Assembly: GCA_022565395.1 (NCBI GenBank)
Contig: JAIUMV010000017.1
Location: 1-64,000, forward strand
DNA from: Marinobacter sp.
Lineage (GTDB): Bacteria; Pseudomonadota; Gammaproteobacteria; Pseudomonadales; Oleiphilaceae
DNA length: 64,000 nt
Direction: 5' to 3'
Numbering within the stretch: position 1 is the stretch's first letter; the number at the start of each line of letters is the position of its first letter. Positions 48,051 to 51,373 of this stretch are shown here, one piece after another. The translations under genes and the position numbers were made by a program. The notes beneath the pieces are model-generated. The model was not told the origin of the DNA, did no database searches, and was given only the letters and a program-made list of their open reading frames with translations.

Positions 48051-49307
48051 TTAACCGCGGTATACCGGGAAGCGGGCACACACAGCCTGTACCTGCTCAC
48101 GCACACGGGCAATGGTCTGCTCGTTATTGATGTCGTCGAGAATGTCGCACATCCAGGTCGCCAGCTCACGGCACTCAGCTTCACCAAAGCCACGCGTGGT
48201 GATGGCCGGGGTCCCGACGCGCAGGCCAGAAGTGACAAAGGGTGAACGGGGGTCATTGGGAACAGCGTTCTTGTTGACCGTAATATGGGCCTTACCGAGG
48301 GCGGCATCCGCGTCCTTACCGGTAATGTCCTGCTTGATCAGGCTGACCAGGAACAGGTGGTTCTTGGTGCCACCGGAAACCACATCAAAGCCGCGCTCAA
48401 CGAACACGTCCGCCATGGCAGCAGCATTCTTCACCACTTGTTGCTGGTAGGTCTTGAACTCGTCGCTCATGGCCTCCTTGAAACAGATGGCCTTGGCGGC
48501 AATCACATGCATCAGGGGACCACCCTGGCCGCCGGGGAACACGGCGGAGTTCAGTTTTTTGTGCAGGTCTTCATCAGCACAGGCCAGAATAAGACCGCCA
48601 CGAGGACCGCGCAGGGTCTTGTGGGTGGTGGTGGTAACCACGTGAGCATGAGGCATGGGGTCAGGATAGACACCGGCTGCCACCAGACCTGCCACGTGCG
48701 CCATGTCCACAAACAGATAGGCGCCTACTTTGTCAGCAATGGCGCGGAAGCGGGCAAAATCCAGCTCCTGGGAGTAGGCGGAGAAACCAGCGATAACCAT
48801 CTTGGGCTTGTGCTCAACTGCCAGACGCTCGACTTCGTCATAGTCGATCAGGCCGGTTTCCGGGTTCAGGCCATACTGCACCGCGTTGTAGATCTTACCA
48901 GAGAAGCTGACAGAGGCACCGTGGGTCAGGTGACCACCGTGCGCGAGGCTCATGCCCAGCACCGTATCACCCGGCTGCAACAAGGCCATAAACACCGCAG
49001 AATTGGCCTGGGAACCCGAGTGAGGCTGCACGTTGGCATAGGCTGCACCGAACAGCTCTTTGGCGCGGTCAATGGCCAGCTGCTCAGCGACGTCAACGTA
49101 CTCGCAGCCACCGTAGTAACGCTTGCCGGGGTAGCCTTCGGCATACTTGTTGGTCAGCACACTGCCCTGAGCTTCCATTACCCGCGGGCTGGTGTAGTTT
49201 TCGGAAGCTATCAGCTCAATGTGCGCTTCCTGACGCTTCTCCTCTGCCTGCATGGCATTCCAGAGTTCGTCGTCAAAACCGGCGATTTTCATATCACGAT
49301 TAAACAT
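48051..49307 (-). CDS. glyA: Serine hydroxymethyltransferase
   Basis: 418 residues of PLP fold type I. It interconverts serine and glycine with tetrahydrofolate and supplies one-carbon units. [38 protein letters not shown] and the PLP lysine segment [15 protein letters not shown] are all present. The first Met (MFNRDMKI) is used here; an ATG five codons later is possible. First gene of glyA-nrdR-rib cluster. Confidence 0.97.
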
Positions 49308-49547
49308 GGATGTGCTGCCCCTGTCTGTATGGCTTGGCCCGGAGCAAATTCACGCCCACGGAACCCCTGAAAATTTGGGCCGCTATTCTAGCTTGAAAAC
49401 GGGTGAAAAATCATCCTTTATACTGCCCGCAAATACCGGCATGCGGCCTATTCCGGTTTTGCGTCAATTGCTATCCCCGGGAGGTTTAGATACCTTACGG
49501 GTTTGATTTGTCAGCGGCCTTATCCCGGCTGCTTTTTTGATTTTTTG
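49308..49547. other. glyA-ettA intergenic region, promoter-bearing part
   Basis: No gene is visible. On the minus strand TAGAAT at 49390-49385 is a plausible glyA -10 without a good -35. On the plus strand TTGAAA (49393-49398) and TTTATA (49417-49422, 18-nt spacer) are a possible ettA promoter. Both are tentative. Confidence 0.4.
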
Positions 49548-49682
49548 TCACGGAATCCACGGAAGACGCGGACATGCACAGACAAAGAAAAAACTTTTTG
49601 TCATTTCGTCCGTGCATGTCCGTGTCGTCCGTGGCTGACCTTTAGTCGTTTTGCTGTTCCGCATCTTCCGTGGATTACGTGG
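49548..49682. repeat. Inverted-repeat element with CCACGGA/TCCGTGG arms
   Basis: The left arm 49557-49579 (CCACGGAAG...ATGCAC) and right arm 49612-49634 (GTGCATGTCC...CCGTGG) are 23 nt long and complementary at 21 positions, around an A/T-rich centre with GACAAA and TTTGTC. A further outer copy of the motif, CTTCCGTGGATTACGTGG, ends at 49682 and mirrors the sequence at the left edge. No coding potential. It ends 30 nt before ettA. Similar (TCCGTGTxxTCCGTGG) repeats are, as I recall, scattered across diverse bacterial genomes. Confidence 0.7.
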
Positions 49683-49711
49683 CATCAACCCTTCATGAGG
49701 ACCTAGCCAAT

Positions 49712-51373
49712 ATGGCCCAATACGTATATACCATGAACCGCGTGGGCAAGGTGGTTCCGCCCAAGCGGGAAATCCTGAAGGACATCTCTCTGAGTTTCTT
49801 CCCCGGCGCCAAGATTGGCGTGCTGGGCTTGAATGGTGCCGGTAAGTCGACTCTGCTGCGTATTATGGCGGGCGTGGATCAGGATTACATCGGCGAGGCC
49901 CGCCCTCAGCCCGGTATCAAGGTGGGCTACCTGCCGCAGGAACCGCAGCTGGATGACAGCAAGACGGTACGTGAGATTGTTGAGGAGGCCACGCAGGGTA
50001 TTCGGGATGCCTTGGCCGAGCTCGACCAGGTGTACGCAGCCTATGCCGAACCCGATGCTGATTTCGACGCCCTGGCCAAAAAACAGGGTGAGCTGGAAGC
50101 GTACATTCAGGCGACTGATGGTCACGACCTGGACCGCAAACTGGAAGTGGCCGCTGACGCCCTGCGCCTGCCCGCCTGGGACGCACCGGTAAAGAACCTG
50201 TCCGGTGGTGAACGCCGCCGGGTGGCCCTGTGTCGCCTACTGCTGTCCGGGCCGGACATGCTACTGCTGGACGAGCCTACCAACCACCTGGATGCCGAAT
50301 CTGTTGCCTGGCTGGAGCGCTTCCTGCACGACTACCCGGGCACTGTGGTCGCCATTACCCATGACCGTTACTTCCTGGACAACGTAGCGGGCTGGATTCT
50401 GGAGCTTGACCGCGGCCACGGCATCCCCTTCGAAGGTAACTACAGCCAGTGGCTGGCGGCCAAGGAGAAGCGCCTGGAAATAGAGGCCAAGCAGGAGGCT
50501 GCGCGCCAGAAGAGCATCAAGCACGAACTGGAGTGGGTACGCAGCAATGCCAAGGGCCGTCAGGCCAAGAGCAAGGCTCGCCTGTCACGCTTTGAGGAAA
50601 TGAGCTCCCAGGACTTCCAGAAGCGTAACGAAACCAACGAACTCTACATTCCACCGGGGCCCCGCCTGGGTGACAAGGTAATCGAGGTGGAGGGTATCAG
50701 TAAGTCCTTTGATGACCGGCTACTCTACGAAAACGTGTCCTTCCGCGTCGCGCCTGGCGCCATTGTTGGCATCATCGGTGGTAACGGTGCCGGCAAATCC
50801 ACCCTGTTCCGCATGCTGGCAGGCCAGGACACCCCCAACACCGGCACCATCACGCTGGGGGAAACCGTCCAGCGGGCCTATGTTGATCAGATGCGCGATC
50901 TGGATGGCAGCAAGACCGTATGGGAAGAGCTGAGCGACGGCCAGGATATTATCCGGGTCGGCAATTACGAAACCCCGTCCCGGGCCTACGTGGGCCGCTT
51001 CAATTTCAAGGGCTCGGACCAGCAAAAACGGGTAGGCGACCTGTCCGGCGGTGAGCGTAACCGCCTGCACCTAGCCAAGCTGCTGAAGGAGGGTGGCAAT
51101 GTCCTGCTGCTGGACGAACCCACCAACGATCTGGACGTTGAAACCCTTCGGGCACTGGAAGAGGCACTGCTGAACTTCCCCGGTTCCGCCCTGGTGATCT
51201 CACACGACCGCTGGTTCCTGGACCGGGTGGCAACCCACATCCTTGCCTTTGAGGATGACGGCGAGGTGGTCTTTTTTGAGGGTAACTTCAGTGAGTACGA
51301 TGAAGACCACAAGAAACGTAAAGGCGACTCCGCCATGGTACCCCAGCGTATGAAGTACAAGAAGCTGGCCTAA
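49712..51373 (+). CDS. ettA: EttA, energy-dependent translational throttle ABC-F ATPase
   Basis: 553 residues from MAQYVYTMNRVGKVVPPKREIL, the conserved start; an upstream ATG in the repeat is not used. Two ABC domains: Walker A GLNGAGKST and GGNGAGKST, signatures LSGGERRRVALCRLL and LSGGERNRLHLAKLL, and DEPTNHLD/DEPTNDLD. The arm and the linker (P-site tRNA interaction motif) lie between. It binds the ribosomal E site and gates the first elongation step by ADP/ATP ratio. Formerly annotated as ABC transporter YjjK. Confidence 0.95.
   Translation: MAQYVYTMNRVGKVVPPKREILKDISLSFFPGAKIGVLGLNGAGKSTLLRIMAGVDQDYIGEARPQPGIKVGYLPQEPQLDDSKTVREIVEEATQGIRDALAELDQVYAAYAEPDADFDALAKKQGELEAYIQATDGHDLDRKLEVAADALRLPAWDAPVKNLSGGERRRVALCRLLLSGPDMLLLDEPTNHLDAESVAWLERFLHDYPGTVVAITHDRYFLDNVAGWILELDRGHGIPFEGNYSQWLAAKEKRLEIEAKQEAARQKSIKHELEWVRSNAKGRQAKSKARLSRFEEMSSQDFQKRNETNELYIPPGPRLGDKVIEVEGISKSFDDRLLYENVSFRVAPGAIVGIIGGNGAGKSTLFRMLAGQDTPNTGTITLGETVQRAYVDQMRDLDGSKTVWEELSDGQDIIRVGNYETPSRAYVGRFNFKGSDQQKRVGDLSGGERNRLHLAKLLKEGGNVLLLDEPTNDLDVETLRALEEALLNFPGSALVISHDRWFLDRVATHILAFEDDGEVVFFEGNFSEYDEDHKKRKGDSAMVPQRMKYKKLA

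Follow-up and report, generated by a model that had tools for sequence, protein, structure and literature searches.

The 64,000-nucleotide stretch of a Marinobacter sp. contig analysed here (JAIUMV010000017.1, hereafter the window) carries a conspicuous inverted repeat in front of ettA, and it raises the question of whether this structure belongs to the gene it precedes or is a copy of a scattered repeat. The structure consists of two nested palindromes at 49546-49684, in the intergenic space shared by ettA (49712..51373, + strand) and its divergent neighbor glyA (48051..49307, - strand). The outer inverted repeat pairs 49546-49572 with 49658-49684 (27 nt, 89% complementary), and the inner one pairs 49557-49586 with 49605-49634 (30 nt, 87% complementary, with an 18-nt loop). 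The left outer arm, of the kind we call A type (49546..49572, + strand), reads TGTCACGGAATCCACGGAAGACGCGGA and holds three CRCGGA hexamers, separated here by 3-nt spacers; in the right outer arm (A type, 49658..49684, + strand) two hexamers have one base changed each (TCCGCA and TACGTG). The right inner arm (C type, 49605..49636, + strand) contains GTCCGTGCATGTCCGTGTCGTCCGTGG and matches other copies in the genome by up to 94%. Its left counterpart is represented by a C-type remnant at 49573..49587 (+ strand), apparently fused to the left outer arm, as judged by comparison with 25 full-length copies from the same genome, in which an A/T-rich stretch and the whole inner arm stand where the ettA copy has only this remnant. 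Given this fusion and the several changed bases, the ettA copy reads as a deletion product, that is, as a truncated, worn copy of a scattered repeat.

The predicted RNA fold of 49541-49690 has a free energy of -68.7 kcal/mol (z = -8.1), and none of 200 shuffled sequences was as stable. The inverted repeat that the preliminary description had picked out is thus real and far beyond chance. The further copy of the outer motif that had been noted on its right is also present, but it is the partner of the left outer arm, hence the nesting of the palindromes. The element does end close before ettA, 27 nt from the start codon; this ATG, at 49712, is kept in relatives, and the alternative GTG at 49670 of the open reading frame list falls inside the hairpin. 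Taken singly, TCCGTGG heptamers show no enrichment in the window (13 observed, 9.96 expected, with 24 of 100 shuffles having as many), which indicates that the signal lies in the arrangement and not in the heptamer. In a consensus scan, the region of the element yielded no promoter; a terminator-like hairpin followed by a T tail lies just upstream, at 49513-49533. Some other copies in this genome likewise lie after T runs or terminator-like hairpins (L027 and L030 are examples judged by eye), which may reflect a preference in insertion. Were transcription to start upstream of the hairpin, the hairpin would be part of the ettA leader, and since it ends 27 nt before the start codon it may then act on ettA, if at all, through RNase III-like processing of the RNA rather than through the binding of ribosomes.

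To assess whether the element is tied to ettA, we searched 61 genomes of the family, including our own, with the ettA region and compared the loci of 29 of the 60 relatives, among which ettA could be placed in 28 and both ettA and glyA in 26. The gap between the two genes is 404 nt here and 215-403 nt in the 26 relatives. The arm motif, allowing up to 4 mismatches, is absent before ettA in 27 of the 28 relatives, with one weak match in the remaining one (L255), and a search of 49301-49900 against Rfam returned 11 matches, all to microRNA families and all below their gathering scores. Because the relatives compared lack the element at this site, apart from that weak match, and no Rfam family reached its threshold, we rejected a leader or riboswitch for ettA; a repeat that is present in many copies and missing from this site in 27 of 28 relatives is not a leader structure of ettA. 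The case that had been named against a dispersed repeat, a structure unique in the genome and conserved with ettA, is therefore contradicted on both counts, with the weak match in L255 as the single reservation. The absence in relatives is most simply explained if the ettA element was inserted in this lineage. In three relatives (L252, L258 and L263, from genomes G174, G444 and G138) the glyA-ettA space holds a different palindrome of about 100 bp, with arms like gccatcgggtagggcgatccggga in two of the three, which indicates that palindromes from different families enter this site.

Searched with a 150-bp stretch that contains the element, the 3.89-Mb genome gave 75 HSPs at about 40 places, in keeping with the earlier suggestion that the repeat has copies elsewhere. 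Full copies are about 158-236 bp long and composite, with an outer pair of arms around an inner pair. The outer arms have the consensus GCCGCGGAATCCRCGGAAGNACGCGGAAA and the inner arms GCCACGGACGACACGGACNNNCACGGAC, each with its complement on the right, and the two types are built alike, from three CRCGGA hexamers set 3 and 4 nt apart. The genome contains 129 exact triple-hexamer arms against 0 for the reversed-pattern control, and in the loci fetched from this genome 119 of 124 arms lie outside open reading frames of at least 150 aa. Copies reduced to the inner pair exist (L015, L028), as do outer arms around other DNA (L012, L018, L035). Capture of outside DNA between arms was considered and is not supported, as the interior of L018 has no second copy in this genome.

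In the outer stem, the two arms of one copy pair better than arms taken from different copies. Across 25 copies from this genome this stem has 31 mismatched pairs, whereas exchanging right arms among copies at random gave a mean of 58 (0 of 2000 shuffles as low), and 7 of 27 outer pairs carry changes on both sides, counts that are inflated by related copies. The inner stem pairs no better within than between copies (110 mismatches against a shuffled mean of 103), in part because the third spacer hardly pairs.

The preliminary description held that similar repeats occur sporadically in unrelated bacteria and that their origin is unclear. The pattern TCCGYG-N4-TCCGYG-N3-TCCGYGGC was found in at least 114 stretches of named genomes, and the matches listed include Marinobacter, Lysobacteraceae, Acidobacteria, Verrucomicrobia, Planctomycetes, Chloroflexi, Bacteroidota, Cloacimonadota, Nitrospirae and one MAG labelled Halobacteria. 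These loci hold 62 inward arm pairs no more than 140 nt apart (up to 3 substitutions per arm), and the palindrome is therefore a common form among the kin. Relatives in unrelated bacteria do exist, but they are one architecture across many phyla rather than sporadic look-alikes, and the question of their origin can be narrowed to the arms of elements that carry a GxxExxY nuclease gene.

GxxExxY proteins are known as neighbors of such repeats, which prompted a search with the Pfam model PF13366. The genome under study has exactly one match, and this gene (L154:1486-1860) lies between A-type arms, with a left arm GCCGCGGAATCCGCGGAAGGACGCGGAAA from position 1437 and a shorter right arm TTTCCGCGTCCTTCCGCGG, beyond which follow an antitoxin-like ORF, a PIN-like ORF and then a full right arm. 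Its left arm is of the same kind as the left outer arms of the ettA element and of the full-length copies in this genome, and gene-bearing and gene-less elements thus have their arms in common. The ettA element itself has the features by which we delimit the proposed GxxExxY-arm family, triple CRCRRA arms with spacers of 2-4 nt in inverted pairs, and the genome that holds it also has such arms around a GxxExxY gene. In Marinobacter daqiaonensis (L142) an arm pair holds a GxxExxY ORF in the same arrangement, with arm strings identical to those of another genome of the family, G502 (L206). Antitoxin-like and PIN-type ORFs, so labelled by eye, adjoin the GxxExxY gene near or inside the arms in both genomes (L154:1952-2540 in our own, L142:982-1561 in M. 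daqiaonensis), and the antitoxin-like ORF of our own genome matches no NCBIfam or Pfam family.

The gene in this genome matches TIGR04256 (NCBIfam, 2.8e-40) and PF13366, PDDEXK_3 (Pfam, 3.2e-39), and GxxExxY proteins, of about 125 aa, are by family match PD-(D/E)XK nucleases. The E of the GxxExxY motif, a D, and the E and K of an ExK motif are each conserved in no fewer than 72 of the 73 aligned sequences. No relative was found in the PDB at E values up to 1, and an AlphaFold model computed from three sequences (pLDDT 44) is too weak to interpret. GxxExxY genes occur in 8 of 72,556 plasmid records and in none of the phage records, and no relative was confirmed among viral contigs. We know of no transposase activity of these proteins. 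The one-line descriptions of TIGR04256 and PF13366 mention neither repeats nor mobility, and a search of the open-licence literature found no link between such repeats and GxxExxY, PF13366 or TIGR04256, which may exist elsewhere. In one genome (L183, G272) the gene has a whole short palindrome on each flank, which indicates that the hairpin itself acts as an end repeat. GxxExxY genes are also found in housekeeping neighborhoods (L236, L238 and L239: after radA in Bacteroides, after ade in Bernardetia, and between fabD and fabG in Sphingomonas), and L239, where no arms bracket the gene, is perhaps a settled form.

To measure how regularly such arms accompany the gene, we used 398 evenly drawn Pseudomonadota genomes, 64 of which have PF13366 matches, at 102 places including our own. 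Of the 101 other places, 50 were examined, 30 as returned and 20 picked by hand, mostly to reach other families. For each gene, the preceding 350 nt were compared with the following 350 nt in reverse complement, and a locus was scored positive when it stood above all of 100 shuffles. Inverted arms bracket the GxxExxY gene in 36 of 47 usable loci, and in each of these 36 the aligned arm contains two or more CRCNRA units. Among control genes, the test was positive in 0 of 41 from the window, in 9 of 432 at loci chosen because they carry arms, and in 10 of 106 that neighbor GxxExxY genes (36/47 versus 19/579, Fisher P = 7.5e-35). The sample leans on one bacterial family, f39, which contributes 26 positives among 30 loci against 10 of 17 for the others. 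Elsewhere, bracketing was found in 9 of 13 loci from our own genome and its family, 2 of 8 plasmid records and 1 of 2 loci found by pattern. The same test gave no bracketing arms at 11 of 47 Pseudomonadota-draw, 4 of 13 own-plus-family, 6 of 8 plasmid and 1 of 2 pattern-found loci, which indicates that some GxxExxY genes live without arms or with arms further out. Dropped before counting were L155 and L159 (short flank), L194 and the second piece in L158 (fragments), the second match of L184, L142, L214 and L220 (duplicates), and L216, L217, L222 and L223 (degenerate). A version of the test with 30 shuffles and windows that cut into the arm scored 36 of 72 loci positive (controls 1/41, 37/432 and 19/106).

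As a comparison, we examined genes of another family, PF05635 (four-helix bundle, S23p; L271-L300), whose inverted arms stand above shuffles in 21 of 30 loci, with the rows for L288, L296 and L297 unsafe because another ORF was picked. Bracketing alone is therefore not unique to GxxExxY. The PF05635 arms are of another kind, GTAGGC and GTGAGTA arrays, and none of the 30 loci has CRCRRA triples on both sides of the gene, which indicates that the arm type is specific to the protein family. This hints that the PF05635 elements may be a parallel class that includes the intervening sequences of rRNA genes.

Within the GxxExxY family, the spelling of the arm unit differs by locus (CACGAAG, CGCAGAG, CACAGAT, CACGGAA, CACGGAC), and the seventh letter of the unit is the same on the left and on the right at 44 of the 45 loci where both arms could be read (L162 is the exception). 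On a tree of 73 proteins this letter requires 4 changes over 57 labelled rows, where 3 is the minimum for four states, and shuffled labels require a mean of 20.9 and at least 16 (0 of 500 as low as 4), on a tree of 117 columns that has many unresolved forks and in which near-copies help any label to cluster. Arm type and protein clade are thus inherited together, as is expected for any linked pair. A second association appears at the level of genomes. An intact GxxExxY gene (E < 1e-30) is present in 12 of 151 genomes of the family, a match of any quality in 15, and exact arms in 21. Genomes with at least six arms number 11, and 9 of these have the intact gene, whereas among the remaining 140 it is present in 3 (P = 1.3e-10, phylogeny ignored). 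Two arm-rich genomes, G537 (39 arms) and G493 (20 arms), have no PF13366 match, and three genomes with an intact gene and no arms of the exact pattern (G138, G532, G535) have arms of other spelling or spacing (L185, L207, L215). In f39, considered as a second lineage that might show amplification of one arm type, exact CACGAAG arms are found in 18 of 45 genomes, with up to 11 per genome, and are thus multi-copy there, with the gene copies only partly typed.

Two hairpins of genome G520 are missing at the syntenic sites of genome G500, where the flanks are 94-97% identical. Neither site shows a clean target-site duplication, and since the alleles differ by about 10-30 nt beyond the arms, the difference may be an insertion or a deletion, in either direction. 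Other hairpins compared between G520 and G500 (L305, L308) are matched through by the other genome and are thus common to both. At the ettA site, the pattern among relatives favors insertion.

Taken from sequence comparison, this evidence suggests a family of mobile elements with an unrecognised enzyme. We consider it probable, at roughly 60%, that the hairpin before ettA is a worn, truncated and gene-less copy of a mobile palindrome whose autonomous form carries the GxxExxY gene, with mobilisation by the nuclease as the inferred step. The autonomous form would consist of a GxxExxY gene between inverted arms with three CRCRRA hexamers each, whose starts are about 8-10 nt apart, and gene-less pairs of these arms, the hairpins, would increase in number in intergenic DNA, in the manner of REPINs and their RAYT transposases. 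When single-stranded, the arms would fold into a hairpin or cruciform; the nuclease would read the hexamers, which recur regularly, about once per helical turn, and cut at the foot of the hairpin, and the freed hairpin would be re-inserted between genes. We infer in particular that the nuclease itself mobilises the arms, that there is a cleavage step, and that the intermediate is single-stranded DNA or a cruciform. A wider proposal, which is tentative and may well be wrong, is that there is a pan-bacterial class of mobile elements in which a stand-alone GxxExxY nuclease moves or maintains its own hexamer-array hairpins, with the S23p proteins as a parallel class that has its own arms.

The alternative that survives best is that GxxExxY is a passenger or parasite that homes into existing hairpins mobilised by a different enzyme, or that it is only one of several cargoes. 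The two ORFs that separate the gene from the full outer right arm in our own genome fit this alternative, as do the outer-arm pairs that bracket other DNA in L012, L018 and L035; moreover, the hairpins far outnumber the gene, and some arm-rich genomes lack it. A mere passenger is at odds with an arm type that follows the protein clade with only 4 changes, and PF05635, the second bracketed family in the comparison, has arms of another kind. In addition, no other shared enzyme was found in a search that covered PF01797 only. On balance we regard this alternative as rather unlikely, and retain the nuclease-borne element as the preferred reading.

An improbable explanation is that the hairpins act at the RNA level, being excised by RNase III-type cleavage as in the intervening sequences of 23S rRNA and spread by rare RNA copying or by recombination. 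The stability of the RNA fold would agree with this, and there is a precedent in Coxiella, whose intervening sequence is described as having terminal inverted repeats that form a 28-bp stem cut by RNase III and an S23p ORF preceded by heptamer repeats (PMC4990558). The inverted arms of PF05635 genes, which belong to the S23p family, also point in this direction. The likeness to our elements extends to a small ORF inside inverted arms that form a long stem and to heptamer-type internal repeats (PMC4990558), whereas the protein family and the arms are different and the ettA copy lies outside an rRNA gene. The copies examined in this genome are intergenic and GxxExxY is by homology of a DNA-nuclease type, both of which argue against an action on RNA.

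It is more improbable still that the palindromes belong to a REPIN system driven by a Y1 (HUH) tyrosine transposase. Two papers describe the REPIN/RAYT system, and likewise TIRYT/TIRtron, as a small enzyme gene flanked by inverted repeats, with the REPIN repeats also occurring as gene-less, extragenic, covarying multi-copy hairpins (PMC3116915, PMC3733652). The anatomy is alike in that extragenic inverted doublets are present in many copies, form hairpins and show compensatory changes (PMC3116915), which here are seen in the outer stem only, and Y1_Tnp is found in 90 of the 151 genomes of the family. However, PF01797 has no match in our own genome or in G502, the two arm-richest of the family draw, and Y1 is present in 9 of the 11 genomes with six or more arms against 81 of the other 140 (P = 0.2). 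A RAYT/REP system was therefore rejected, given the lack of PF01797 in the arm-richest genomes and of an association between arms and Y1. The GTAG tag is also missing from the foot of the copies in this genome, as judged by eye. The enzyme here is by family match a PD-(D/E)XK nuclease whereas RAYT is an HUH/Y1 enzyme, and the arms are three spaced hexamers whereas REPs are GTAG-tagged palindromes of 20-40 bp. REPIN/RAYT is thus the closest analogy, and by the measure of PF01797 and the GTAG tag the element before ettA is not a member of it. Least probable of all is a non-mobile host motif under selection, such as a terminator or a nucleoid-protein site, with which the intergenic location agrees and which is contradicted by the absence from the ettA site in relatives, the presence/absence between close genomes, the nested and truncated copies and the patchy distribution of exact arms (21 of 151 genomes of the family).

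As short non-autonomous inverted repeats with the ends of a gene-bearing element, the hairpins preferred here as derivatives of a GxxExxY element also resemble MITEs. They appear to differ from these in that the gene between the ends encodes a nuclease and not a known transposase (the scan of our own genome for transposases being limited to PF01797), in that the arms are internally repeated, and in that the two presence/absence sites have no clean target-site duplication. The best reading of these comparisons, and the new element in them, is that the repeat arms are those that bracket the GxxExxY nuclease gene and that the hairpins may be gene-less, REPIN-like derivatives of the GxxExxY element.

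CCACGGA-type palindromes occur in many phyla, and we found no assigned origin for them. Linking them to one protein family provides a candidate enzyme and allows their spread to be tested with just one small protein, and it offers a function for GxxExxY, a little-studied family named only after its motif. If the wider class exists, it would consist of small proteins with cognate hairpin arms that are neither DDE, tyrosine, serine nor HUH transposases, and it would explain the repeats of the TCCGTGG, CTTCGTGG and CTCTGCGG types across bacterial phyla. If the nuclease mobilises the arms, bacteria would have a second, unrelated solution to the task that RAYT performs for REPINs.
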